A stretch of 64,000 bases of DNA, from contig OX344757.2 in assembly GCA_947034885.2 (NCBI GenBank), positions 8,184,001 through 8,248,000 on the forward strand, written 5' to 3'. Below, piece by piece: positions 6,227 through 64,000 of this stretch. This stretch comes from Thuidium tamariscinum (taxonomy: Eukaryota; Streptophyta; Bryopsida; Hypnales; Thuidiaceae). How positions within the stretch are numbered: the stretch's first letter is position 1; every line of letters begins with the position of its first letter. A model generated the notes under the pieces. The model searched no databases. It was not told where the DNA came from and saw only the letters and a list, made by a program, of their open reading frames with translations. The position numbers were made by a program, and so were the translations under genes.

Positions 6227-8555
6227 ATGAAGCTCACTTGGCTCTCACTCTTGGTCCTCGCATGGAGCCATTGCTGGCTACAACAAATCTTCGGTCAGGC
6301 CGTTCAACCAGCTGGATCTGTCTGCCAAGCCATGGCTCCATCGACGAAGCTGGAAATGTTCGTTGACCAGTTGCCCGGATTGGCGAAAATAGATGTCTCG
6401 TATGGCATCCAACTCACTCTTGGAGCCTACAAAATTCAACAGGTGAGCAAGCAATCGGCCAGGTCTCTGTAAACCTTCGGCCAGATTCGAGTTTTTCGTG
6501 TTCTTGTCTGTTCCTCATCAAAAAGTGGTCTTCAACAATTCTGTGTTCTCCAACATCCTGTGCTCTTCTTCAACATCTTGTATTCTTCTTCAATATCCAG
6601 TGTTCTTGAGCAGTAACCCTTCAGATGTAATTGAAAAACGTTTCAAAATCGTTCGAAATGAAAGCTGAGTCAGACAGCAAGGATACTCTGGAAGGTTGTT
6701 TTTCATGATATGCTTGCTGTGAGGTTGTGCAGAAATTGCACAGGGACTTGCCAAACACGACGCTGTATGCCTACGGCACATCGGCTTCAACAGCGACCTA
6801 CCCAGGCCCAACTCTGGAAGCGATCCAGGACATCCCCACGCACGTCCGCTGGGAGAATCACATCCACGACTCGTCGCACATGTTCATCGTGGACACCACC
6901 GTGATGTGGGCGGATCCCCGACGCCACGGCGTGCCCGTCGTCACCCACCTCCACGGCGCAGCCGTCGCGAGCGCCTCCGATGGCCACCCTGAAGCTTGGT
7001 TTACAGCCTTTGGAGACCATGGATCGACCTACACAAGCCAAAACTACACGTACCCAAATGCTCAGCAGCCCGCGATGCTGTTTTACCACGATCACACTAT
7101 GGGCATCACGAGGCTGAACATCTTGGCAGGGTTGACAGGCCTGTACATCATCCGCCCGAAGACGTTTCCCCCGGCGTGGATGCCGACGAAGGAATACGAA
7201 GTGACGCTGATGCTGCAAGACAAGGCGATTTACAAGAATGGCTCCGTGAATTTTCCTACAGTCGGTTTGTCGATTGACAATCACCCCCACTGGTGTCCGG
7301 AGTACTTCGGAGACGTGATTCTCGTAAATGGGAAGGCGTGGCCGTACCTTGTGGTCAAACCGCGGAAGTACCGGTTTCGAATGTTGAACGCCGCGAATGC
7401 ACGCTACTTCGAGCTTTCGCTCAGCAACGGAGCTGATTTCGTGCAAATCGGGAGCGATGGCGGACTCCTGGAGCAGTCCGTGCATGCGCAGAAGCTCATT
7501 GTTGGGCCGGCGGAGAGAGTGGACGTTGTGATCGATTTCTCGACTATGGCTGGTGCAAATGTCACGCTGCAGAACCTGGCGCCAGCACCGTACCCGGATG
7601 GAGACCCATTGTTCTCACCGGGATCTACGCGCAGTGTCATGCAATTTAAAGTGTCAAAGGTGGGATCAGAGCACCTTCATGACTAGAGAATGATCTGACG
7701 CATTCAACAACTTGCTCCTCTTTCATTTACTTGTCGAGAGCATGCTTTATGAGAATTTAGGGTTTAGGGTTTTAGGGAATTACAGCAGCGTCATGCAATT
7801 CAAAGTGTCACTGGTGGGATTGGAGCACCTGCATGCTTAGAATGATCTGACGCATCGAGTCGAAAAACATGCTTTATCTTGATCGAGAATTTAGGGTATG
7901 CAGTTTTTGGAAATTGGGTTTTAGGTGTTTTGCGATTTTCACGTTTCCTTCGTGGTTCTGCGCTGTGTAGGTCGACGCGTTGCCAACTTCCTCACCGCCC
8001 ATCCCTGACGTGCTTCGCGCACAAGACCCCAATCTAAACCTCACGGACGCCCACGCGCGCACTCTAACCATGATCGAGCGAGACGACGCGCACGATTTCC
8101 CCATAAACTCCGTCCTGTCGAATCTCACCTGGACAGACCCAGTAACAGAGACCCCTTACCTCAACGCCACAGAGATTTGGGAGTTCATCAACCTCACCCC
8201 CGACGCTCACCCCATGCACATCCACCTCGTCAAGTTCAAGGTCCTGAATTTGCAAAAATTCAACCAAACCTTGTTCCAGGAGAAGGGGTGCCACCATTTC
8301 GAGGACAACGGAGGCCCCGGGAGTTGTATTCGTGACGATCCTGTGGCGCCCATGGCTTACCACGTCGGGTGGAAGGACACAGTCACGGCGTTGCCAGGGT
8401 TCGTGACGCGCTTGGTGGTGAAATGGAGCTCGGATTCTGGAGATGGCAAGTTCCCGTTCGACGCCACTGCGGCGCCGGGCTACTTGTGGCACTGCCATAT
8501 TCTGGATCACGAGGACAACGCCATGATGCGACCCATTCAGGTGGTAATGGTGTAG
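6227..8555 (+). CDS. LPR: LPR-type multicopper oxidase (CotA/bilirubin-oxidase-like ferroxidase)
   Basis: Three exons are read: 6227-6442, 6733-7659 and 7971-8555. All junctions are GT-AG and phase 0, giving 575 residues, close to the roughly 580 of Arabidopsis LPR1. An N-terminal signal peptide is visible (MKLTWLSLLVLAW.., cleavage near GQA), so the protein should be secreted or apoplastic. The copper ligands are complete: HLHG at 144-147, HDH at 191-193, HPMHIH at 461-466, and HCHILDHEDNAM at 555-566 with type-1 Cys556, His561 and axial Met566. Family knowledge: LPR proteins are cell-wall ferroxidases that couple iron to phosphate sensing, and they resemble bacterial CotA more than plant laccases. 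LPR assignment rather than another CotA-like oxidase is inferred from length, domain order and motif spacing. The start is the first ATG giving a signal peptide. Intron 2 carries a duplicate of the exon 2 end. Confidence 0.9.
7631..7905 (+). repeat. Direct duplication of the exon 2 3' end and splice donor, within intron 2
   Basis: About 130 bp spanning the end of exon 2 and the start of intron 2 (about 7631-7760) recurs inside the intron at about 7783-7905. The shared order is gtcatgcaatt.aaagtgtca, Gtggga donor context, gagcacct.catg, agaatgatctgacgcat, catgcttta, gagaatttagggt. The second copy keeps a donor-like CTG|gtggga. The repeat therefore offers an alternative or decoy 5' splice site. 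Confidence 0.75.
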
Positions 8556-40345: not shown

Positions 40346-41863
40346 TTCACAATTTTTTGCCATTATATAGTCAAATTATTGTCTTGGGTGCAATTTGGAA
40401 CCAAAAATAAAAATAAAAATCTCTAGAATTATTCCCCTTACTTTTTTTTTAGAAAATGTTGATTTTATAAAAATTTCCTCACATGTTAAAATTTGAATTT
40501 TGAATTTATATTTGCAACTTGAGGTTCCAAATAAGCAAAGATGGGAGAAAGAGATTAATTTTTCAAGCCCAAAATAGGGAAGCTATATTTTTACCAACAC
40601 CCCTCAAATGACTTGGAGGGACAAGCAAGAGGGATAGTTCATCCCAACCATGATCAAGGTAGTCACTAAAATGCTCCAAATCTCAGATCAATAGGTGCAA
40701 TTTTTTGTTTTTGTATAGAACAATGAAGTGAGCATTCATGAAACAATTTTTGGGTCCCCAATGTCTTTGAGTTTCAATTGCTATCACCTTATATTTTGTT
40801 TATCTATATGTAAATTTAAAATTTAAAAAAAAAAATTAGTCATACCTTGGGCCGGGACCTTGGGATGCAATATTTGGCTTCGTGATAAATACTTGAAGGC
40901 TCCCCCATGACCAAGGTAGTCATCAAAATGCTCCAATTATTGGGTTGATAGATACATTCTTTGTTTCTACAATGAAAAATGAGGTCATTGATCAGATAGT
41001 CAATGTCCTTCAAAGGTTAATCACTAAGCTAGGGATTGACATCATTCAACCTCAAAAATCTCACTCAAAATAACTTGAAGAATACTATAATATAAATATT
41101 TTTTAACTTGAATTTTAAATGTTATTGCCTTCTCTTTGTATGTCTATATTTGATTTTTTTTTCAAAAAATTTAGTCATTATCACAATCTTTTGAGTGCAA
41201 GGTATCCATTTTGTTTGCAATGGACTCATTAGTTAGATATTCTTTTGTTTGTTTATATAAATTATAGAAATATGATCTAATTTGCCATGTCTAAACCAAA
41301 TAGACACTTTAGAAGAAGATTAATCCATTGATGGCAATTTACACCACTTGTTAGGTCTTTTCATAGGTCAAATCCATAGTTTGATTTCTATTCTTGATTC
41401 CCAATAAGAAAACAATGCAAAGGACTCGAAACTATTAAGCACTCAATGAGTCTTATAATAGGTCCCTTATAGAAACAAAGTGAATACCTATTCAACCTTT
41501 AATTGGGTTTTACCGCCTTAGTGATATACACTAACCTTTCAAAATTAGGGCAAAATAAAAGTGTTGAATTTTGATTTAATATTATTTTCAAATATTCAAA
41601 ATATTATTTCTATAATAATGGTTCCACCTTATAATAAAGAAAAAATTGCAAAAAATTGAATTGGTCATGCAATCATATATTGTCTACTTAGCTACTAAGA
41701 TAAATATACCTAATTTTGACTATTTTCTAAAACCACACTTTAGATTGTTGCGTAAAATGTTCTTTTACTATTCATAAAAGTGTATGGTCAATTATCCAAA
41801 AACCTATTTTCAGCACATTTAAAATTTATAGTTCATTCATAGTGTACACAAAATGCATTCTAT
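40346..41863. other. Gene-free AT-rich stretch
   Basis: No gene or complete element was seen. A phrase (accaaggtagtca, aaaatgctccaa) occurs twice, near 40650-40680 and 40911-40935, suggesting an old duplication. Confidence 0.4.
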
Positions 41864-42075
41864 CACTACAAGAGAAAGGGGTGTTTTAAGTATAGTCCTA
41901 GAGATAACATTTTAAGTAATGACCTTTTTAGGAGACTTTAAGTAAGAAATAAGTGTCTTTTCAGTAAAATTTTACTGAAAAGACACTTATTTCTTACTTA
42001 AAGTCTCCTAAAAAGGTCATTACTTAAAATGTTATCTCTAGGACTATACTTAAAACACCCCTTTCTCTTGTAGTG
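41864..42075. mobile_element. Perfect 212-bp palindrome with CACTA-like termini
   Basis: The interval is a perfect inverted repeat of two 106-bp arms with no spacer, centred between 41969 and 41970. It starts CACTACAAGAGAAAGG and ends with the complement. CACTACAAGA is the usual terminus of CACTA transposons. No 3-bp TSD is visible (tat against aga). The terminal tail ggactatacttaaaa..cttgtagt also recurs at about 42855-42893 and 45785-45875. Confidence 0.85.
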
Positions 42076-43253
42076 AGATGACACCCAATGTAAGAAGACA
42101 TATTTTTATGTCAACAATAATGTCTCCCATAATATCTTAATATTTGCCTGGATGTCTTCCATGATATCTTGATGTTGTGGCAGACATTATTCTTGCCATA
42201 TAAAAATATGGATTGTTACAATCATGGGTGTCATCTAAAACTCATCTTCTAAAACATGGGTTTCACATAGTATAAAAATCCTAAATTACAAACCATGACA
42301 AATTAGCTAAATTTAAATTTAAATAAAAAAATAATTTTCAATTTGTAAAATAAATAAAGGATGTAATTGCTATCAAGGTAGGCATCTCCAATAAAAATTT
42401 CAAATCAAATGCATTTATACTTTAATACTGTTAATATTGTGGATGGCAACAATGTCATTTCAAATGTAAAGAAAAATGGTACAATTTTTTTTGGAAAATA
42501 AAGGATCTAATTGCTATCAAGTTAGACATGTGTCATAAAAATTTCAAATCAATTGAATTTATGCTTCAATAGTTATTATAGAGGATGGCAACCTTGTCAT
42601 TCAAAATGTAATTTAAAATGGTACAATTTTTTCTTGCAATCACCACACATGGTATACAACTTATTCTTTGTTGGTATATCACTACCAAAGTTTTAGTTGA
42701 TTCAAATTTGAAAATTATCACCGTACACTTTGTAGTACATTTCTGTTTGTAGCGATCCTTTGAAGGACCCAAAGTTCATGATGACATGTATTTCTAGTAC
42801 AATTTTACTAAATTTTTAAAATTTTTAGGTCATTATTTGTAGGACTATAATGCTACTAGGACTATACTTAAAATACATTTTTTTTTCTTGTAGTATACAT
42901 GAGATCAGGGAATATTTTATGGAGGGTTATTTATCTATTATTTTGTAATTTAATATATCCTATTGTTAAAAATAACTCTAAATTTCCATTTATTATAATA
43001 TTCTATATGATTCATAATACACTTTTGAGTCAAAGTTTTTGGCCTCTAGATTAGATTAAAAAATTAGAACTATTAGTTGTTGTATGATTTTTCTTCTTTT
43101 CCTTCTTTGATCTTTTGTCTCTTCTCTTTCAAACCATTTTTTATGGTTACTAAAAACTAAAGTACAATATATTTGGACAAATGTCTTGTGGACAAATCAA
43201 TGCACTCTAGTTGTGTTAAACAACTTACTACTAATCATCTACAATATACTCTA
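42076..43253. mobile_element. Composite repeat, copy 1
   Basis: It begins with a hairpin block (gatgacacccaatgtaag .. catgggtgtcatc, 42077-42236). It runs through ggtagggc-free AT-rich blocks to ctacaatatactctaatgaa. It is collinear and nearly identical with 44454-46254 apart from two inserted blocks there. A CACTA-like tail (ggactatacttaaaatacat .. cttgtagta) lies at 42855-42893. It has no transposase ORF. Its right end joins the captured GDU-like fragment. Confidence 0.7.
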
Positions 43254-44091: not shown

Positions 44092-44810
44092 TAAAAAAGT
44101 ACAAGATGTCAAGAAAATAGGTACTTTGACATTTTAATTTTTTATTAAATACAAAAAATAATTTACAAAGAAATTAGAAATGGAAATTTGGAAAGAACTT
44201 CATGGCAATGAACTTTCATCAAAAGAATTATCTTGAAACTATCTTCAATGTTTATAAGTGTGCTAGCAAAGAGGCTGTGTTAATATGCATGTTGAGGATA
44301 TAAAATATTGTTTTTCTAAGTTCCTTTTGGTAGGCATGTACTTGCCTACTATAGAAATAGACTATAAAATTTTTAGCTCTATATCATTTATTTTAGATAC
44401 TCCCCTACACTAACACTATAAGAAGTCCATATTTTAGGTGACAAATTTTACAATAGATGACACCCAATGTAAGAAGACATATCTTTATGTCAACAATAAT
44501 GTCTCCCATAATATCTTAATATTTGCCTGGATGTCTGCCATAATATCTTGATGTTGTGGCAGACATTATTCTTGCCATATAAAAATATGGATTGTTACAA
44601 TCATGGGTGTCATCTAAAACTCATCTTCTAAAACATGGGTTTCATATAGTGTAAAAATCCTAAATTACAAACCATGACAAATTAGCTAAATTTAAATTTA
44701 AATAAAAAAATAATTTTCAATTTGTAAAATAAATAAAGGATGTAATTGCTATCAAGGTAGGCATCTCCAATAAAAATTTCAAATCAAATGCGTTTATACT
44801 TCAATAATGA

Positions 44811-52484: not shown

Positions 52485-55400
52485 GTTTTCAAGCAGATTG
52501 TGAACAATATGAGGCAAGTAAAAATTTTGCCATGTAGGAAGATAGGAAATATGAGTATTGCAAATTTTTCAAAATTTTATCCCCCAAATTAAAATTACTA
52601 TGACTTTTTTGATTTTTGAGAGCCAAAAAGTTGCCTAGACTAGTAGCCAATGTCTAAGCTCTTCCAATTCCAATCATAGACTAAGTACTTTCCCACTCAT
52701 TATTCTTGCTTCTTGCTCACTACTTTGGGATATGTGTCATGATCTTATTGGGCCCAATTTTGAAAAGGAAGAAAAAACACAATTTAAACTTTGTTAAAAA
52801 ATATGTTCTAGCTTTGGTTGGAAATAGCTACATCCTATAGGTTGGGTAGGTTGGGTATGGATCCCTGGTTGAAAATGGGTGGTCCTTCTTTAATAATGCA
52901 AAAAAGAATTTTTTAATCAAGAGTTGAGTTTCAATGACAACTTTTGAAGCCAAGATATAATGAATTAGGTCATTGTGTGGAATGGTTGTGCTTTTTAAGG
53001 ATCTTATTGCAATTTATGCCAATGCTCAATTCAGATTTCAAACTTAAAAAATGTATGTTTGTAGAAATTCAATTGCAATGTGGTTGCAAGTGCAAATTTT
53101 ATATAATCTAAATGTAGTTATAATTCCTACTCAACTATTGCATATGTAATATGTTAGTGATGCTTATTGTAAGAAAATTAACTGATAGGAGTAATGAAAC
53201 ATTTTTTTAAAAGTGTAAGCCATTGCATAGAATTGGTATTGGAATAAACTCGTCCTCAAGTTCAAAAAGTGTCCTTAGTTACTTGTGTAAGATAAACCAT
53301 TCTATCTATTGATTTCATGAAAGGCAAGTACAAGCTTCAACTTTCATATACAAATGCCTTTTATTGACCTTGAAGTGTTCCGACGTCCAATTTCTAGACA
53401 ATGTACAAACTGAAAATCAGATTTATTTTTCATTATAGCTTAGATGAAAATCATCCTAATTTTTAGAGATACTTTATGAAGTTGTTGTTCTATCCAAGGG
53501 TTGGATTTGGAATTATTAGAGTACATTTCTATAAAAAAAAATTACAAATGTAGAAGTTTGTCAAGTGGATGACCAAACCAAAATTACATTGACTTTAGTT
53601 CAAAACTACTTCAAATTTGGAATTGCAAAAACGAGGTCATAGAATCAAAGAATACAAAAATCCCCCAAAATCCCCATATCAAGAAAACCTCATTTCAAAT
53701 CTATTGCAACAAAATTTACTCAAAAAATGACAATATTTTGCCTATAATTGAAATAAGAAGGAATTTTGAATTTTCCTTTAAAAATTTATAGAAAAATATT
53801 AGTCATAGCATTGGTGAATCTAACTGTATGGATAGAATCTAAACTCAAACTCTACAACTTCTATTTGCATCTCAATTCCAAAATATTCTTCTGAATTGTA
53901 CTTTATGATGGTTTTTCTGAAATCATCAATTTTGGAAATGAGTCTGGATGCTTGGATTAACAAAACAATTTCCTATAGGTCCTAGTGTTCTATTATCCTA
54001 ATTAGAGCTATCTCAAAAAAATTAAATCTATAGCTTTGTTATGAAAAAATTGCATTCTTGTTATTTATGGAGTCTAAGGGTGATAAGGTGAACCATTACA
54101 TATCGTCCTACTATCCTAATTGGATTTATCTGAAGAAAATCAAATCTATAGCCTTGTTATGAAAAAATTACATTTTTGTCATTTATGGAATCTAAAAGTG
54201 ACAAGGTCAACCAACCCATGACAAGCAAAGTGTCTAATGTCTAATGTAAATACCAAGAAAAACCACCCATTAGAGTTTTATATCAACCTATAGCAAAGTT
54301 TTTCTAATAAATAAGATTAAGACTTTATTAGGTTGGTTAGTGGCCAAAATCAATGCCTTGAATGATGGTGATAGAATTATTAGTGCTTGCTATAGGAACT
54401 TCTATCTATTTAGTTATAAGAACTATTTTTTTTTAAATTCTCTTCTTATTTGGTATTTTCTTTTGGAGAGACAAGGCAAAGAATTTCTATATGTGTTGCA
54501 CTATTATTGTCTTTTTAGAACAAATTACCAAATGCAATGCCAACCTTTCAAAGCAACGACGCTAGCAAGCGAGCTTGGAGCGGTGAGCTTGTGAGTTGGG
54601 AGCCGGAAACTTGTGAGCGGGGAGCCTCTAAATTAATTTTTTTGGAAATTTCTTCTCAAAATTTGTTTGTTCTATTTTTTTCTCCAAAAATTAAAGGAAA
54701 TAATTGAATATGTATAGTAATTTTAGGACCTATGACCGTGGACCCTATTACCGTGGATTGTGATAAAATTTTATACTTCGTTTTCTTTCTAAATTTTTGG
54801 GATATGTAATTAGACTTTCAAACTTTTGCGCAAAGCCTCAATACTTTGTTTATTCACTATAGTAGAAAACATGTCCAACATTTAAAATATAGTATATCTA
54901 TGAACCCTATGGTATATAGACCTTTTGGAAGTTTGAGTGACATGACTACCTCTAATTCTATTCGTAGACACTTGACTGAAGTCTTCAAGTGTTTTACATT
55001 ATGTATTTTTGAATATAAAGAAAATAAATTTTGAAGGACAATCGTAATGTATTTGTATATGTTTTTATGTTGACTGAAATGAATTTGCAAAAGATGAATA
55101 AAAATAAATAAAATATAAGAGATGGACTAGTTAACACACCATAGAAATGACTAAAACAAATACTGAAAAGCATGACATTCATGATGAAAAAGAGTCTAAA
55201 ATATATTTACAAGCATTACAAAAAGACAAGAGAAAAAGCCCCCAAAAATAGAAATTTAATATTAAAAAGAAGGAGTGAAATGGAAAAAAATAAGACAAGA
55301 GAATAGAACAAAATTTTAGAGAAATTAAATAGAAAAGAATGAAATCTCCCAAAAATGTCTTCAAAGATGGAAAAAGGATTGACAAAAGATAAGACAAATG

Positions 55401-55682
55401 AATTTCATATTCATGTGTGCAATTGTCAATGATTTGTTTGGAATGATGTTTGTAGTCATTTAGATTTACTAAACTCTAAAACATTTATTCAATACTTTTC
55501 TATAAAGTTTCTAGACAAATATATTTCTGTACTTTTAATTAAGCATTACACAAATAGAACTTCATACATACTTCAAAATAAAAAAATAAAAAATCATTTT
55601 ATGGTCTGCAAATCATTTCAATTGTATGTATTGTATATAAATACATTACAAATAAAGAAGCTAGAGCAAAAATCGTAAATGC
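52485..55682. other. AT-rich gene-free stretch with a tandem duplication
   Basis: A roughly 118-bp duplication lies at about 53990-54215 (aaatctatagcYttgttatga appears in each unit). A short GC-rich patch at about 54556-54625 repeats gagcttggagcggtgagctt-like words. No coding sequence was recognised. Confidence 0.4.
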
Positions 55683-57071
55683 CTATTCTGGAATAGTAAT
55701 CAATCCTACTCGAACTAGAAGTAGCTTCAATTCATTGAAGCTGTAACTAGGTGCATGAATGAATTTGTCTTCATGGATATCCATCTTGCAAAAGTACCTA
55801 AACAAATAGTACAAGTGCTTGCAATTCACATATTGTTGTCGTCCTCCAATTGCAGATACTGCCATGTTGACAAAGTCTGGGCATGTGCATGTGGGGAACA
55901 TACCTACTGTAACTCGGTACACATTTTTGTTAGGGTCAGCCCCAGTTTCTAGCACCACTATCGCCCCAAGGCCAGGAGAAGGAAGTAGAGTCACTCCCAA
56001 AATTTCTCCTTTAACGTTTCCAGCACTCTCCCACTTGTTCCGTTGTTCTACTGTTGGAGCATTTGTGATTCTCCTAATTGCTCGGTTGTTTCTAACCGTT
56101 GGATATGCATTCGAATTTGGTGGGGGCGCTTGGTCAAAGAAGACCGTGTCAAAAATCTTGGACATATTGAATAATTGACGTGGCGACAATGAAGGCCTCT
56201 CTTGGAGATGGAAGCCTGCATGCTGCAAAAGCAAAGTTTCTTCTCGATTGAGATTGGTTCCAAGCAAAATAGGCCAAACCTCTGGTAGTTCTGGCCAATC
56301 AATAACCCACTTGCGCTTGGTACCTTTCACACATCGTTCGATGTCATCCCAGTAGAACCAGAAGTCCACTACTACCTCACACTTACTCCCGTATTCTTCT
56401 TTTCTACCACGATAAGTAGGAGATGGTATACCATTTTTTCCTTTTGCTATTTTGGAGGTGCACTTGATGTTTGATGTCCGTTGCTGAGCTTGACATCTTG
56501 CATTCGATTTGTGGCCAATCCTTGCAATGTGCCATTTTGATGTATCACAATCACTTTCAAATGCTACTGCCACATATTGTGAGGTTCTGACTTTACTCTG
56601 TTTTCCATTATCCTCCAACAATTCTTCCGATACCCTTGTGGACCTTGTTCGAACGCGGGGTTGAGAAAAATTGATTTTATCTGGTCTATGTGAATCTCCA
56701 GCATCACCAATAGGAACGTCCAACTTCCTCTTCAAGCTTCCAAAGACTTCTTCTCCCTCCAAATGGGGAACTTGAGTTCCCAAACCATGTGCTTCAGGTA
56801 GTGTATTCAAGGCTTCCGCAAATTTTTTTGGACACCCACTTCGTCTTGCAGCTCTCAACTTCAATTCTCCTTTTGATGGGCCTGATCCTGATGAATGGCC
56901 TCTAAGATATGCACGATAGTTTGTCATTTGCATCCATGCCCGAATACTATCATCACATGTGGCGTTAAACAAATTGTTTCCTCGCTTTCCAAACATTTGT
57001 AGCCAGTTGTTGTGAACCGTTTCAGATAAATTACAAAAAGGCATGTTTGTCATCTTCTCCAAATTCAAACC
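55683..57071 (-). CDS. MULE transposase gene, C-terminal exon with SWIM zinc finger
   Basis: An open frame of about 460 codons ends in a stop at 55683-55685. It starts after a plausible acceptor (ggttttcaag, exon from 57071). The order is: an N-terminal NMPFCNLSETVHNNWLQMFG segment matching the TNN.aEs.hr.lk region that follows the catalytic core in MULE transposases; a charged, low-complexity middle with a nuclear-signal-like SLKRKLDV; and near the end a SWIM finger, C-T-C with C-K-H at residues 403, 405, 425 and 427 of the open frame. SWIM fingers normally close Mutator-type and FAR1-type proteins. It continues the gene at 57614-59759. The simple splice joins phase 1 to phase 0, so a small unseen exon or a 1-base lesion is implied. 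Confidence 0.75.
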   Translation of the reverse strand, partial: GLNLEKMTNMPFCNLSETVHNNWLQMFGKRGNNLFNATCDDSIRAWMQMTNYRAYLRGHSSGSGPSKGELKLRAARRSGCPKKFAEALNTLPEAHGLGTQVPHLEGEEVFGSLKRKLDVPIGDAGDSHRPDKINFSQPRVRTRSTRVSEELLEDNGKQSKVRTSQYVAVAFESDCDTSKWHIARIGHKSNARCQAQQRTSNIKCTSKIAKGKNGIPSPTYRGRKEEYGSKCEVVVDFWFYWDDIERCVKGTKRKWVIDWPELPEVWPILLGTNLNREETLLLQHAGFHLQERPSLSPRQLFNMSKIFDTVFFDQAPPPNSNAYPTVRNNRAIRRITNAPTVEQRNKWESAGNVKGEILGVTLLPSPGLGAIVVLETGADPNKNVYRVTVGMFPTCTCPDFVNMAVSAIGGRQQYVNCKHLYYLFRYFCKMDIHEDKFIHAPSYSFNELKLLLVRVGLITIPE

Positions 57072-57613
57072 CTTGAAAACCAAGCACAATAACATAAAAT
57101 ATTATCAACACATATGAATTTCATATGCTAAAGCATAAAGGGCTTCATAAATTACAATGAGAATAAAATGTTTTAATTTTGAACAGGACTTCATATTAAG
57201 ATCATTCAATCATAGTATTGTAAATTAACTATTTCTTTTGGGAATTAATTTCTACAAATATTACCTAATTTTAGGGCTTTATAACAAAAATCATTTATAA
57301 AAAATGAGACTTCAAACTCATTGAAGATTGAAAAGTTAAAAAAATAGGAGTAACAGTAGTGAGCACTTGAACATTAGTCGGATCCGACTAATGTTCAAGT
57401 GTTCACTACTGTTACTCTTATTTTTGGTACCTTCTACTGCTGAAATTAATATAAAAATATTAATTATATTTATCCTTCAACAAAATGAATACTTGAAAAT
57501 AACAAGTTTATTCCTAAACATAAGTAAACTAATTTTTTGGCAAAATAAAGAATGATTTTCAAGGCAACAATTGAAGGTGTGTACATTTATAATAGGAAAT
57601 TTTTTGAACTCAC
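57072..57613 (-). other. Intron of the transposase gene, containing a hairpin
   Basis: The donor ACAATG|GTGAGT at 57613-57612 is strong. The acceptor is taken at 57073-57072. The intron is AT-rich, about 540 bp, and holds the hairpin at 57339-57426. The phases of the flanking exons disagree, so an unrecognised small exon may be hidden here. Confidence 0.5.
57339..57426. repeat. Hairpin 1 of the GTCGGATCCGAC family
   Basis: A spacerless inverted repeat of about 44-bp arms centred at 57382/57383. The core GTCGGATCCGAC is flanked by attA and inner-arm cacttgaacatta. Arms agree at nearly every position (about two mismatches in 40). It lies in the transposase intron. Confidence 0.9.
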
Positions 57614-59759
57614 CATTGTCATGAAGCCCCCATTGAAGATACCGAAAATGCCAGAATGCCAACCAGTGATCCAGGTGATGAAGTGCTTCTTCGTTAGCCG
57701 CTCCTGATGAAAACCACCATGAACGAATTGCAAGGTATCGAGTCTCCGCTTCAACTATGGTCCTTGATTCTTTGTATTGCTTGCATAATGTTATGTGTTG
57801 TTGTTGAAAACCCTGCTTGATATGCTTCTGTGTGTGCTTGTGAAGTGAAGTACTCCAATGTAATAAGCAAGTCCTTTCACGATTCACCATGACCTCGTCA
57901 GTGCAACCACTCCCATAAACTATACGAGCTGCATTCCAATTAGCCATTGCACTATCTGCCATGAAACCTTTAAAGTTAGGATGAGGCACCCCATGTCGCA
58001 CCATGACACTATTCAAACTCCTCCAAAATTGTACTTGCACCTCAGTATCTTCGGATTGCATGTCGCATACTACAATAGTCATAACCTTCTTGTACTGTGA
58101 GTCGTACACGTGGCAGCCCATAGTGGTCCAGTCCTTCACTCGTTTGACGTGGTTAAACATCATCCACGAGTTTTGTGGATCACCTCCTGGTTGCATACGC
58201 CTTATCATGTCTACTCCACTTCCAGGTCCTTCATTGAGCATCTTGAAGATGTACATCTTTTCCTTGCCTTGCCTTGGGAAGACGCTGTCATGTATGAATT
58301 CAAACTTCGATTCTTTCTTCATAGTCATGATGTTGTCAATGACACCTCCTTTGTTGTTTGAGCGAAAAGAAGAAATAACATTTCGTATGTTAGGACTGCT
58401 CAAATATTGGAAGCGATCCATAACGTCATCCATTTCCTCCCCTTGCAACATCACTTTCTCTCCTTGTCCATTGTGAAATAGGTAATTCGACAGGAAGTCT
58501 TTGCTAGCCGATAATACAATAGCAGAGTTGGTGGCTGTAGGTGTCTTGCCCACTTGGTCGGCAATGAGTGCTGTAATTTCATTTCTAGAATCTCTATACA
58601 TGCCTTTTGCTATCGGATGGGTATGATTTCCAAAATGAATAGCGGCTCGACTCATTTTTGGGTTATCACTATAGCAATAGTAAATCCTACCATCGCATTT
58701 CTCAATGCAAGTAGGTGGGCCTTTGCACACCTTGCAAACTAGATTACAATCTCTTGGAGGACCTTCTCCAACCACAAAAGGAAAGATTGTGGAACCGCTC
58801 CACTCAGTTTCGTTCTTCCTAGAAGCCCTTGTCAAGTATTTACAGTCTATATTCTCACAAATAAGATGACCAGCACAAAATGACTTACAGAACTTGAGGT
58901 TATCGGAGTTGTTGATGTTTGTTGTGATCAGCTTGCACCATGGATGTCCATCATAACGCTTATCCATTCCCTCCAAGTTTCGAGCTGCAGACGAAGTAGA
59001 ATTGGGTGTACATGGCAGTAATTCAAAGATGACATCTCCGTCATACGAAGGTGGAAGAAACTGCACGCAATGGTGGATTAGGGTGTCCAAATCAATTGTG
59101 GACAGTTCATTTCGAGACTGACGAATGGTAGATAGTCGCCTCAAGCTATCCATTATACTCAATTCACCCAAAGGAGTGGAACGTAGCGAATGACGCAAAA
59201 ATGGAGATTGAAGAAGACTAATAGATGGCGCAGCTTCACTGGATTTCATAGTTGATGTACTTTGATCCCCTCCTGCTTCCTTCTTCATTTTCAAATTTGG
59301 GGACTCTCCTTCCGATTCACTCGACAACTCTATAATGGTATCCAACTTCTCTACCTTCACTTTTCTAAGAATTACATCGTTAGAGAGAGGGAGAAAACAG
59401 TCAGTCGTTGGACTACGTATAAGTGCTGGAGACATGTAAGGCATGTTCACCGTAGAATTATCTGACTGTCGGCTTGGTATCTCACTGGTTGCACCTAGCA
59501 AATTTAGAGGAAGTCCATAAGCTCTATAATTCCCTAACCCAAGGTACCAACACTGTCCTTCTTCTTCAACACTCTTCACTATAGGAATAGATTGTTGCAA
59601 CTCACCAGAATCTGACTTCTTCTCTTCTTCAACATAGATAGAGGACTCAACAAACTTAAATCTGACATATAGGAGGTGGCTAAAAACTTTAGCACGTCCA
59701 TCATGATCTAGGGGGAACACCAACGGAATCTCGTTACCATCTACTCTAAGACAAGCCAT
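57614..59759 (-). CDS. MULE transposase gene, N-terminal exon with GCM-like fingers and DDE core
   Basis: 715 codons from ATG at 59759-59757. Residues about 270-390 hold a Cys/His array: HPWCKLITT, then C..C pairs (CKSFC, CENIDC), then CKVCKGPPTC, CDGRIYYC and a closing HFGNHTHP. This spacing fits the WRKY-GCM1/GCM-type zinc domains found at the N-terminus of plant Mutator-like transposases. The core follows: VYDSQYKKVMTIVVCDM (Asp553), GFMADSAMANW (Asp602), and CLLHW (631-635), the usual D..D..C-x-x-H layout. The third acidic residue is probably one of the Glu residues after 670; it was not fixed. A Ser-rich, charged region (residues about 130-220) precedes the fingers. No disabling stop is present. 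It could be an active element or a domesticated gene. Confidence 0.75.
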
Positions 59760-59765
59760 ATTCAA

Positions 59766-61100
59766 AATTCGAACAATGCATGTATTGGAAATGAAGTAGA
59801 CTACAGTGAAAAATGGAAGAGGAATTCTTATACACCTCCAAGTTCACAGGTGCAATCATTGCAATGTCCATAGCAAATAGAAGCAACAAATATGAGGTAA
59901 GTACAGAATCTCCCATACATTCTCAATTATTTCTATCTTAACTATGCCGCCATGTACTATAATGAAAATAAAGACGTATTAGAAATGAATTAAAGGACAA
60001 AGGCAGCCGCTAAATAATATCTTGTATTAAAGGTAGTCATGAACTATGTAAGTTTAAGACCCTAATTGGTTTCTTAATTTTTTTTGTTGAAATTAATTAC
60101 GGGTTTAGGGCATAATAACAAATACAATTTTTTTTCTTCTGTCAAATATTTCAATAAAGAAGGCAAACCTAGAGTAATGAATTATTTGATGAATACTCCT
60201 CTTTTTTTATGGAATTTCGAATAAGGAAATAAGAATAGAAGACTTGGGTGATGGAAATCTAACTATATTGTTATCATTGCTCTTTTATATAGTCTTCCTT
60301 TGTTTTAATACCTCATCTATTCTCATTTTAAATCCACCTTCCTTGACTTGGTATTTTGAGGGGTAAATTCGCAATCATGTAACAATTCTTCCAAATTATA
60401 AATAGAGATATTAATTCAATTTATTTTCTTAAGTACATAACAAAGGTATCTAGGGGAAGAGGCTCCTGAACCGCTCATCTAAAGGTTGGTCCTCCTTTTT
60501 CATGTATTTTTTTGGATGGTAATATTTTTCACTCATTTTTCAGTGAAGGAAAAATAAACAAGGAATCTAATACAAGTTGTTTCATATTTTTTGAAGCATT
60601 ATTGAGTTAGTTATGAATTTTCAAACATAGTCTAGCATAGGGCCCTATCTGTGATGAATAGGCCTTGCAAACCCATACATGTGCATTTAGAAAAAAAATG
60701 TGGCTTCTTTAAAAAAATAGCACTGAAACATGTAAAAAATAATAGCATTTCTTTCTAAAAGTGTTCCTTTCAAAAACTGAAATAAATATTTGAATAAATC
60801 ATTATTTCAGATTTTTGAACACTTGAAAGAAGGTACTTCAACAACTAATTTTTATTTTGAAAAACTTCATTGAATTATTAAAAAAAAAAAAGCCGTTTTT
60901 TGATGGGCCATGATTGGAATCTTTCATTTTTAAGGATGTGATAAGGTTTTCACCACATGATTGGACTTTACATTTTTCAGTCCAACTACTTTGTCATTTA
61001 CTACGCCATCTCCCCAAAAACTGCCGGCATAATAAGTGTGGCAATGGCACACTTAGAATTTGAAATGTACACCTCACTTAAAGTAATAGGAAATAGGTGC
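59766..61100. other. Divergent intergenic region between transposase and 61.8-kb genes
   Basis: It should contain promoters of both genes. A partial MITE family C copy lies at about 60466-60670 (gaaccgctcatctaaaggtt, tttttcagtgaagga, agttgtttcatat). The rest is AT-rich and low-complexity. Confidence 0.45.
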
Positions 61101-61103
61101 ATT

Positions 61104-61580
61104 TGATATGCAGATTTTTTGGGGCCCCCAAAACTGCCGCCATCAATCATGAGGTGGCAGCTGGGCTGGTCTGAAAATGTGGGTCAGAAAATCCAATTTA
61201 ATTTGATTTGCGGATTTTTGGAGGCTCCCAAAACTGCCACAATCAGTCATGAGTTGGCAGTTGGGCTGGTCTGAAAATGTGAGTCAGAAAATCCAATTTA
61301 ATATGATTTGCGGATTTTTGGAGGCTCCCAAAACTGCCACAATCAGTCATGAGTTGGCAGTTGGGCTGGTCTGAAAATGTAAGTCAGAAAATCCAATTTA
61401 ATATGATATGCGGATTTTTGGAGGCTCCCAAAACTACCGCCATCAGTTATGAGCTGGCAACTAGGCTGGTCTGAAAATGTGGATCAGAAAATCCGATTTA
61501 ATTTGATATGCGGATTTTGGAGGCTCCCAAAACAGCCGCCATGAGTCATAAGGTGGTAGGTAGGCTGGTACATAAAATGG
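61104..61580. repeat. Tandem array of a 100-bp unit, nearly five copies
   Basis: atccaattta starts at 61191, 61291, 61391 and 61491 (the last with one change), so the period is exactly 100 bp. Each unit carries gcggatttttggaggctccc, aaaactgcc.c.atcagtcatg and gggctggtctgaaaatgt. The array ends about 260 bp before the start codon at 61846, in the likely promoter. Confidence 0.85.
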
Positions 61581-61845
61581 GGAGGTAGACCTTGAATTAA
61601 GTATTTTAGGCACGTGTAAAGTAAGCCCCAAGTGTTATAAGTTGGAGCTCTTTCACTTGAAATGCATTCTCCTTTTTGCTTTGACGTTAGGCTGTAGGTG
61701 TTCTTGCAAGTGTTCTCCATGTTCTCTCCATCTCCTTATGCTTGCCTATGATCATAGCTCTTTTGAAGCTCCAGTGCATAGTAGGAAGAAGAAGAGGCAT
61801 AGTTCTTTATTTTTTTCTTCATGTAGGGCGTTGAGGAGGTCTCAG

Positions 61846-63978
61846 ATGGCAAGAGGGAAGAGAGCAGTTTCAAGAACAAGTTTGTTTGCAGTTGATGACT
61901 TTTGGAAAGTACTTGAGTTTGAAGGACATAACCTTGGAGAGCAGTTTGGAAATCAGATTGAAGGCGCTCATAGTGTAAGTTAGCTTAGTTTTATTATTTT
62001 AGTGAATGCAATTTGTACATAGGATGAAGCTGAAATCCATACTAGATTCTAAACATTCACTCTTTCGAGATTATTAGAGAGAATAGATTATTCATATATA
62101 AATCCTTGAATTGATGCGTAGGGACAGGTCAAAATGGTGAGAACTCTTCGCAGCCAAAGGCGACAGGGAGGACCAGAGAACTCTGCGACAGGAAATGACG
62201 AAAACGTCCCTGTACCTGAGGTGAGCCATTTCACTCTTGCCGTTTCCAATTTTTGATTTCATCGCTAAAATTGAAAAAAAAAATTGTGCGCGCCCCTCCT
62301 GCTTGCGTTGCTGCGGGCTCGCAGAGTTGGGCTGAACCCCTGCCGCGCAGGGCATTCGAACGCCCTGCGCGGCAGAGGTTCAGCCCAACTCTGCGAGCCC
62401 GCAGCAATGCAGGCAGGCTGCCAGGTAGACAGTGGAGGCGTCCCCAGTAGGAGGGGCGCGCACAATTTTTTTTTAAATTTTTTTTAAGGGGAACCTGATT
62501 CCAGGGTAGCATGAGGTATCACTTGGAGATCAGTCGGATCCGACTGATCTCCAAGTAATACCTCATGCTACCCCGGATTCAGGTTCCCTCCAATTTAAAA
62601 AAAATAAATTATGATGTCCATTGTTCATTAGACAATACTTCTAGGTCAAAATGCACCTTGGATGTTGGTTGTAGCATTTGCCATTTTCACTTTACAAATT
62701 TCTTTTTAGATATACCTTTATCTTAAGGTAATATAAATTACAAACTTTAATTTCATGAAGTTCAGGTTATCCAAAGATTAGGTTTTAGGGTTCCTTTCTT
62801 GTAGCAAAAATCTTAAACTTCAATGTGTTGTCCTTTAGCTGAACGGGAGAATTCTTTGAAATTTGTTGAAATTAAAACAAATGGAAGGAAAGTATGATCA
62901 ACATGCACCGCACCCTCCAACAAAACTAGCCTACGCTACTTGTTTGTGTTGTTTGACCTCAAATGCCTATATCTACGAAAATATTCTAGGAAATAATTTT
63001 GAAAGGGACCTGATCTTAGGGTACCTTGAGCTACCCCTTGGAGTTCAGTCGGATCCGACTGACCTCCAAGGGATAGATCAAGGTACCCCGAGAACAGGTT
63101 CCTCTCAAAACAATTTCAAGAAATAAAATTTTGCATACCATTATTTTAGTATATTCTTTTTGTGACCCACATCTTTCAATTCATTTCAAAATTACAATCT
63201 TTTTATATGTGCTTGGGAATTTGAAAGGAATCTTCATGATAGACAACCTAATGTTTATTACTTCAAGGCTAGAATTTGTTTTAATTCTTTTTTAAATTCA
63301 CTTGTGCAGATACCAGTGTTAGTGCCAGCCAATGCTGCTGGAGATTCTACAAGCTTGCCACAGGTATAGACAAAATTTCTCGTTTAGGAATGTTTTGTCA
63401 TTTCTTCAAACTATCCACAATAGACAAGTTCCAAATCAAGTTTCACATCACTTTCGAAACAAATGTCTCCTGGATTTTGTGGGGGACAATTTTTTTATAG
63501 TTCATTACAATTTTTATTCACCAAGTACCATATTTGAGAGTCACGTGAAGTGACACTTGGAAGTCAGTCGGATCCGACTGATCTATAAGTGTCACTTCAC
63601 GTGACTCTCAAATATGGTACCTATTAAATAGATGTTTAACCAAATTCTGTATTTTTTAAATTTATTATGCTTCTTTGCAAAGTCTAAGACAGTGCCTAAT
63701 AATGAATAAGGTCAAACTGAGTCAAGAATATTTCTAATAAAATGATTAATTTTTAGTCATTTTTGCAATAACCTTCTATGTCTTATAATATTTTCTTATA
63801 TTTTTCTTTTGGTATGGAATATAGTAGACAATTGTTGTTTAATATTTGAAAATATGTAAACTATTTTTTTTTAAATTTGTCTCAATTTATCATTACAAAT
63901 TTCTGTACATGTCATTCACATGTTTCTATATTAATAATGATGTAGACATTTGAGGACCAGTTTCCCAAGGGGCTTTAG
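61846..63978 (+). CDS. Small multi-exon gene, unknown function
   Basis: Four exons are inferred: 61846-61974 (then GTAAGT), 62122-62220 (after gcgtag, then GTGAGC), 63310-63363 (after ttgtgcag, then GTATAG) and 63946-63978 (after gatgtag, ends TAG). All junctions are phase 0 and the total is 104 residues. The basic N-terminus (MARGKRAVSRTSLFAVDDFW) is followed by an acidic stretch, a basic segment (VRTLRSQRRQGG) and a short hydrophobic exon (IPVLVPANAAG). The last exon is the least certain because the window ends nearby and the stop comes after ten codons. Three of the four hairpins and a GC-rich palindrome sit in its introns. It diverges from the transposase gene. I do not recognise the family. 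Confidence 0.45.
62283..62466. repeat. GC-rich foldback in the second intron
   Basis: Inverted repeat centred in TTCGAA at 62357/62358. The inner arms (about 55 bp each, ctgcgggctcgcagagttgg inward to cgcgcagggc) match almost perfectly. The outer ends attgtgcgcgcccctcct pair again after a roughly 35-bp extra block on the right side. The flanks are A- and T-runs. It is far richer in GC than the intron around it. The open frames on both strands here come from the palindrome. Confidence 0.85.
62487..62590. repeat. Hairpin 2 of the GTCGGATCCGAC family
   Basis: Spacerless inverted repeat, about 52-bp arms centred at 62538/62539. The inner arm cacttggagatcagtcgga is complete on one side and has one change on the other. 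Three mismatches in the arms. It lies in the intron between exons 2 and 3. Confidence 0.9.
62990..63117. repeat. Hairpin 3 of the GTCGGATCCGAC family
   Basis: Inverted repeat of about 64-bp arms centred at 63053/63054. The inner arm is cccttggagttcagtcgga. The outer arm (gggacctgatcttagggtac) resembles that of hairpin 2, with more mismatches between the two arms. It lies in the same intron as hairpin 2. Confidence 0.85.
63525..63620. repeat. Hairpin 4 of the GTCGGATCCGAC family
   Basis: Inverted repeat of about 48-bp arms centred at 63572/63573. The outer arms (gtaccatatttgagagtcac, gtgaagtgacactt) match perfectly; the inner ggaag/atag part has the mismatches. It lies in the intron between exons 3 and 4. 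Confidence 0.9.
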
Positions 63979-64000
63979 GTTCTCCCTACACATCCGCTAG

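Follow-up and report, generated by a model that had tools for sequence, protein, structure and literature searches.

What keeps four palindromes with one shared centre in the introns of two divergent genes? The question is raised by a 64,000-nt stretch of the moss Thuidium tamariscinum (assembly GCA_947034885.2, contig OX344757.2, positions 8,184,001 to 8,248,000; hereafter the window), in which the introns predicted for two divergent genes, A and B, contain the zero-spacer palindromes H1–H4, each centred on GTCGGATCCGAC. We find that both genes and all four palindromes belong to one large transposon, and that conservation is strongest not in the hairpin but in a composite motif of rigid spacing, both of which the original prediction, made from the letters of the window, had missed. 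We put at about 0.5 the probability that H1–H4 are intronic composite dyad operator sites of a large Mutator-like (MULE-like) transposon, bound by a sequence-specific DNA-binding protein.

The palindromes and their host transposon

The core GTCGGATCCGAC occurs exactly at four places in the window, once at the centre of each palindrome (Table 1). With up to two mismatches there are five matches, compared with 0.36 expected, and none of 100 shuffles reached five, confirming that the hairpins share a palindromic core. The eight half-arms, compared ungapped over 49 nt, differ by 20–51% between hairpins and by 6–14% inside one hairpin; joining every left arm to its own right arm gives 21 mismatches, against 34–77 for the remaining 23 pairings. 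The prediction that outer arms differ from one hairpin to the next and still pair within each therefore holds, except that the outer arms turn out to be homologous, though diverged, and not unrelated sequence. Adjoining H2 is a further, GC-rich zero-spacer palindrome (62298–62417) with inverted A/T-rich arms on its flanks, which varies strongly in size and sequence among transposon copies.

The exact 19-nt half-arm was found at nine places in the genome (363.2 Mb, 19 contigs) and its reversed control at none. All eight loci that were cut out, two of which are the same site, are copies of a single larger repeat and align along most of their 3 kb, except that locus L006 is alignable over the first half only and stops inside H2. 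Copies on C3, C4, C5 (two, C5a and C5b), C10 and C11 align within 54551–69665, some of them partially. In all three copies whose two ends were compared, the repeat is bordered by perfect 10-bp target-site duplications (TSDs), different in each copy (CCTTTCAAAG in the window copy, GAAGAAGAAC and GTAAAAATTT), and its termini are imperfect terminal inverted repeats. The unit of ~15.1 kb is therefore a DNA transposon, and both divergent genes are its own genes. All four hairpins lie at the same places in copies C5b and C10; a centre scan picked up three of the four in C3, C4, C5a and C11, the others being in some cases decayed, absent or outside the stretch. That all four hairpins fall in introns, as originally predicted, is borne out by the gene models; with both genes and all hairpins inside one repeated 15-kb transposon, it amounts to one copied arrangement, which the prediction had missed.

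Gene A carries a putative transposase part in exon 1, whose protein shares 70–79% identity with four relatives, and a SWIM-like zinc finger near the end of exon 2, which matches SWIM (PF04434) with E = 0.016 and 15.1 bits, under the cut-off of 19.6. No MULE domain of Pfam matched gene A at E up to 10, and a single-sequence AlphaFold model, made without an alignment, was uninformative (predicted local distance difference test score, 31.9). MULEs have TSDs of about 8–12 bp, and the label MULE-like is taken only from the TSD length and the sub-threshold SWIM match. The donor of the gene A intron (ATG/GT) is retained in 17 of 18 other copies and an in-frame acceptor AG in 15 of 18. The window copy departs from these: close to the junction, where its exon 1 ends (57614–57640), the two exons are out of phase by one nucleotide, whereas those of the other copies are in phase.

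For gene B, the predicted first coding exon, B1, has protein similarity in L006 (79%), L032 (58%) and L055 (44%, E = 7.6e-5), and no counterpart was found in L056 or L057. H2–H4 are bracketed by B1, which is conserved in L055, and by an exon near 64134 that has conserved counterparts in L056 and L057; because B1 was not found in the latter two, the dyads there are placed only as upstream of the second exon. The intronic location of H1–H4 is thus as good as the gene models that predict it, which for gene A combine open frames, GT-AG borders and conserved exons and for gene B are weaker. No significant Pfam or PDB match was obtained with the exon pieces of gene B. A likeness of gene B to a beta-class amino-methyltransferase, judged by eye, found no support in Pfam or PDB, and no claim is made for it. 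Upstream of gene B, about five similar 100-bp tandem units (61101–61583) were seen by self-comparison and in other copies.

The conserved core and the composite site

Relatives were chosen by the exon sequence of gene A, independently of the core, which gave 66 matching places in the genome. Of 516 first-look candidates, 40 were scored; 11 are near copies, the window included, and 29 are 78–79% identical. Gene A introns were fetched for 10 of the 29 and for one near copy, L054. The 12-bp core is present within the orthologous intron in all 10 relatives, eight times exactly and twice with one mismatch, and in L054 with two mismatches. The relatives' introns, as cut to end 3 nt before the acceptor AG, are 429–661 nt long, and the core lies 215–363 nt from the 5′ splice site. 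Core matches within one mismatch were found in none of 6000 base-shuffled introns. The introns of L030, L037 and L039 also carry the core, that of L037 being partly alignable with the window's; these three were found through the core and are not independent evidence.

The remainder of the intron is not preserved. Among 53 intron pairs drawn between four subfamilies, 22 gave any BLAST alignment; 22 of the aligned pieces lie over the core and two elsewhere, the latter being 52 and 56 nt long near the 5′ end (L047–L048 and L048–L050). None of the 53 that includes the window subfamily gave an alignment at all. All 8-mers that the four subfamilies have in common in their gene A introns derive from the core.

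Dyad arrays are also present in the gene B regions of three diverged relatives (L055–L057). A half-arm profile reveals a second motif, GRGTACCAYGA, 25–36 nt from the dyad axis, as does a comparison of 15 gene B dyads. In a genome-wide search for GTACCNYGA and GTCGGATCCGAC separated by 8–28 nt, 279 matches (143 + 136) were obtained, and none with the reversed control. The gap is exactly 18 nt in 100 of 100 among the matches listed, of 279, and 78 of these were re-measured. Half-sites at gap 18 sought without the second half of the core gave 383 matches (194 + 189; control, 0). The centre of GTAC lies 31 bp, or about three helical turns, from the central axis. Locus L031 entered neither the half-arm profile nor the counts of G-U pairs and half-sites; L033 and L040 were omitted from the G-U count and the half-site profile, and dyads L055_B1068 and L055_B6693 from the half-site profile and the 15-dyad comparison. 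Loci L031, L033 and L040, recovered with the core, have no DNA match to the window transposon; they carry core-like dyads, arrayed in L031 and L040, and possibly represent other subfamilies.

When the half-site profile is run along the window's transposon, scores at or above the print threshold of 11 are confined to H1–H4 (29.9–41.3), in every case as dyads; five shuffled copies of the transposon peak at 7.6–13.4. In 15 of 16 diverged copies on C1–C5, a composite site lies 3.7–11.2 kb upstream of gene A, and the copy at C3:36834418 has no upstream site matching the exact composite pattern. In the window copy and the three relatives, three to five dyads were seen in the gene B region, and the gene A intron holds one. 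The composite site is real, and its standing as an element conserved through a transposon superfamily is well supported.

Table 1. Coordinates, in window positions, of the transposon, its predicted genes, the palindromes and their motifs.
Feature	Position	Strand	Remarks
DNA transposon (~15.1 kb), left 9.4 kb	54554..64000	.	Runs on to L009:5664 (window scale 69664), 5.7 kb beyond the window end
Gene A exon 2, with a SWIM-like zinc finger towards the end	55683..57071	-	Open reading frame; acceptor AG before 57071
Gene A intron, 542 nt, holding H1	57072..57613	-	GT-AG borders, conserved exons
Gene A exon 1, putatively coding for part of the transposase, 715 codons open	57614..59759	-	Open reading frame
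H1 palindrome, gene A intron	57334..57431	-	Arms 57340-57425, 43 nt, 95%; RNA fold -56.9 kcal/mol, z -14.7
H1 core dyad GTCGGATCCGAC	57377..57388	.	Core search and intron comparisons
Gene B exon B1, predicted first coding exon	61846..61974	+	Protein similarity in relatives
Gene B exon B2, predicted	62122..62221	+	Open frame; GT-AG borders read from sequence only
H2 palindrome, predicted gene B intron 2	62489..62588	+	Arms 50 nt, 94%; RNA fold -85.5, z -15.7
Second motif, H2 left arm, AGGGTAGCATGA	62503..62514	+	Partner 62563-62574 on -; 25-36 nt from dyad axis
H2 core dyad	62533..62544	.	Core search
H3 palindrome, predicted gene B intron 2	62990..63117	+	Arms 64 nt, 84%; RNA fold -81.3, z -14.1
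Second motif, H3 left arm, AGGGTACCTTGA	63018..63029	+	Partner 63078-63089 on -; 25-36 nt from dyad axis
H3 core dyad	63048..63059	.	Core search
Gene B exon B3, predicted	63311..63366	+	Open frame; GT-AG borders read from sequence only
H4 palindrome, predicted gene B intron 3	63525..63620	+	Arms 63515-63630, 58 nt, 86%; RNA fold -74.2, z -16.6
Second motif, H4 left arm, AGAGTCACGTGA	63537..63548	+	Partner 63597-63608 on -; 25-36 nt from dyad axis
H4 core dyad	63567..63578	.	Core search

Arm pairing and the rival explanations

The most serious rival, which we regard as unlikely, is an RNA-level element, in which the intronic hairpins would act in the pre-mRNA through splicing, intron retention, a dicer substrate or a self-complementary GGAUCC loop. 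The sites lie within predicted introns, the folds of the window hairpins are far better than those of shuffled sequences (z of −14 to −17), and two-sided changes are frequent in well-paired families. Specifically, 4–11 two-sided changes per 36 pairs separate the four window hairpins, compared with ~0.5–2 expected for independent arms, an expectation that is rough in using a factor of 0.4 for equal change; one comparison between well-paired hairpins gives 11, against 2.0 expected. The suggestion that both arms change together is thus upheld between hairpins. Two-sided changes are scarce within the window subfamily: its 192 pair columns comprise 105 that are invariant, 78 that vary but lack two matched types and nine with two matched types, some of the nine being explicable by single changes.

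Three observations argue against an RNA fold. First, the imperfect pairs have no sense-strand G-U bias, with 26 GT and 28 AC in 13 better-paired dyads (dyads with fewer than 35 of 48 pairs left out) and 71 and 85 over the window subfamily copies, which are not independent. Second, many members of the genome-wide set retain both motifs while their spacers pair poorly. In the 78 of the 100 listed composite matches that were used, taking only dyads with both half-sites listed, spacer arm identity ranges from 7/18 to 17/18 over 28 distinct full dyads, with a mean of 0.75 within dyads and 0.48 between dyads. Third, an unpaired pair of dyads in L055 has two two-sided changes, where ~2.0 are expected, and hence no excess. 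The motifs and their spacing outlast the hairpin, and the variable arm pairing together with the missing G-U bias makes the long hairpin look secondary. The evidence points to a symmetric protein complex that recognises DNA more than to an RNA fold, the latter having been one of the explanations put forward in the original prediction; an RNA role may exist in some subfamilies.

A second alternative, quite unlikely in our estimate, is a function in transposition, with H1–H4 as internal transposase-binding sites or enhancers in the manner of the internal repeats of P elements. The symmetry and rigidity of the site suit a transposase site. The half-site profile, however, finds none at the ends of the window's 15-kb element, and the terminal repeats look different from the dyads. 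In Drosophila P elements (PMC7776569), internal symmetric sites likewise stand apart from the terminal repeats; those sites are subterminal, whereas the present ones are mid-element, in predicted introns.

The third alternative holds that the palindromes persist through template-switch correction alone, serving no function. Template switching can create and repair hairpins (PMC8794818), and such quasipalindrome correction, which is the likely cause of the arm similarity, can account for the matched arm changes and for an altered arm in H2 of copy C5a. There, the outer left arm reads as the right arm, unlike the left arm in the other six aligned copies and in the more distant L032 and L036; one arm-to-arm conversion is the simplest reading and is strongly suggested, in keeping with the gene conversion that had been proposed at the outset. 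Correction predicts neither a conserved core nor a fixed spacing, and leaves unexplained why a single 12-mer should last longer than the intron around it and why the spacing stays fixed where spacers pair poorly. We therefore disfavour it as a full account and consider it improbable.

Least probable by far is that H1–H4 are independent small palindromic miniature inverted-repeat transposable elements (MITEs) inserted into the transposon's introns: as zero-spacer palindromes of ~100 bp with similar GGWACC ends, and with an imperfect direct resemblance on the flanks of H3 (GGAAATAATTTTG / AGAAATAAAATTTTG), they do recall them, but they are placed orthologously in aligned copies and in 10 of 10 fetched relatives, their centre and inner motif are better conserved than their ends, and no clear direct repeat or TSD was seen by eye at the ends of the other hairpins, where inverted similarity fades outward (by eye). 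Plant MITE hairpins are short near-perfect palindromes in introns; these differ in being an internal part of a larger element, and with solo insertions not seen in the copies examined, MITE identity was rejected. Ordinary MITEs with identical outer arms and TSDs, the outcome that would have overturned the original prediction, were not what the genome search returned.

A candidate operator and related systems

The reading that we favour is a DNA operator. Each site consists of a 12–14-bp palindrome, GTCGGATCCGAC, with GRGTACCAYGA on both sides at an exact distance; gene A has one site, and around the beginning of gene B three to five were seen. Most likely these sites would be bound by a sequence-specific protein that the transposon itself probably encodes, and through them, by analogy with VANC in VANDAL elements, that protein would control whether the two genes of the element are expressed or silenced. 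The near-identical arms would correct each other through template switching or conversion and decay once correction stops. A fuller version, which we offer tentatively as less than an even chance, is a transposon superfamily with its own intronic operator of three phased palindromes (GTAC–31 bp–GATC–31 bp–GTAC), read by a transposon-encoded multi-subunit protein that would control both divergent genes and perhaps lift host silencing, with arm-to-arm repair letting the operator outlive the intron.

Several points weigh against this operator reading. The intron position, presumed transcribed, suits an RNA role as well. Searches with pieces of genes A and B brought no binding protein to light, giving only the sub-threshold SWIM match and chance-level matches. 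The 10 relatives, judged by intron alignment, are three subfamilies and not 10 independent cases. In the window's own subfamily, the hairpins change about as fast as the introns and exons do, and recent constraint on them is therefore not visible there. The second motif is weak or absent in gene A introns of some subfamilies, such as L046, and the spacing search needed an exact match of both motifs, so that degenerate members with other spacing could escape it. Finally, an isolated palindrome in L055 (oriented position 1068; core CTCGGATCCGAG, 19-nt perfect arms) is intergenic near gene A and lacks the second motif.

VANDALs are MULEs, and the VANDAL/VANC system of Arabidopsis is the nearest analogy in arrangement. 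VANC21 occupies motifs that lie in introns and further non-coding stretches of VANDAL21, a multi-gene plant DNA transposon, and the motifs are enriched in its own family (PMC5735166); VANC proteins are described as inducing loss of silent marks (PMC10398659). The window copy and its three relatives likewise have arrays of motifs in non-coding DNA of the transposon. The motif of VANC21, YAGTATTAY, is a short 9-mer that belongs to tandem repeats changing fast, whereas the site described here is a long three-part palindrome with rigid spacing, shared across subfamilies. No VANC homologue was identified among the gene B pieces, which were compared with Pfam and PDB and not directly with VANC proteins, so membership in VANDAL/VANC is not established. 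We recognised no published description of this element among the papers listed on the core sequence, palindromic MITEs, quasipalindromes, transposon palindromes of mosses, SWIM/MULE elements of bryophytes, VANC, internal motifs for transposases and arm-to-arm conversion.

Elsewhere in the window, outside the transposon, lies a perfect 214-bp palindrome (41863–42076) of two 107-nt arms, 100% identical, with zero spacer, adjoined by imperfect inverted repeats that recur at 42100–42207 and 44479–44586. A cluster of four C/D-box small nucleolar RNAs (snoZ101, snoR77Y, snoU49 and snoZ157), all of families known from plants, occupies 1811–2481, and a multicopper oxidase gene of at least two exons (Pfam Cu-oxidase_3 and Cu-oxidase_2) occupies 6709–8555.

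Among the internal motifs of plant DNA transposons the VANC targets are the best known, and they diverge quickly. The composite site of this moss transposon, in contrast, is found again in subfamilies that have hardly anything else in common in their introns, with a spacing that is constant among the matches listed. The palindromes also carry a caution, namely that matched changes in the two arms of a hairpin need not imply a selected RNA fold. With such a site in hand, the control that large transposons may exert over their own genes, perhaps including escape from silencing, becomes directly testable with one probe.

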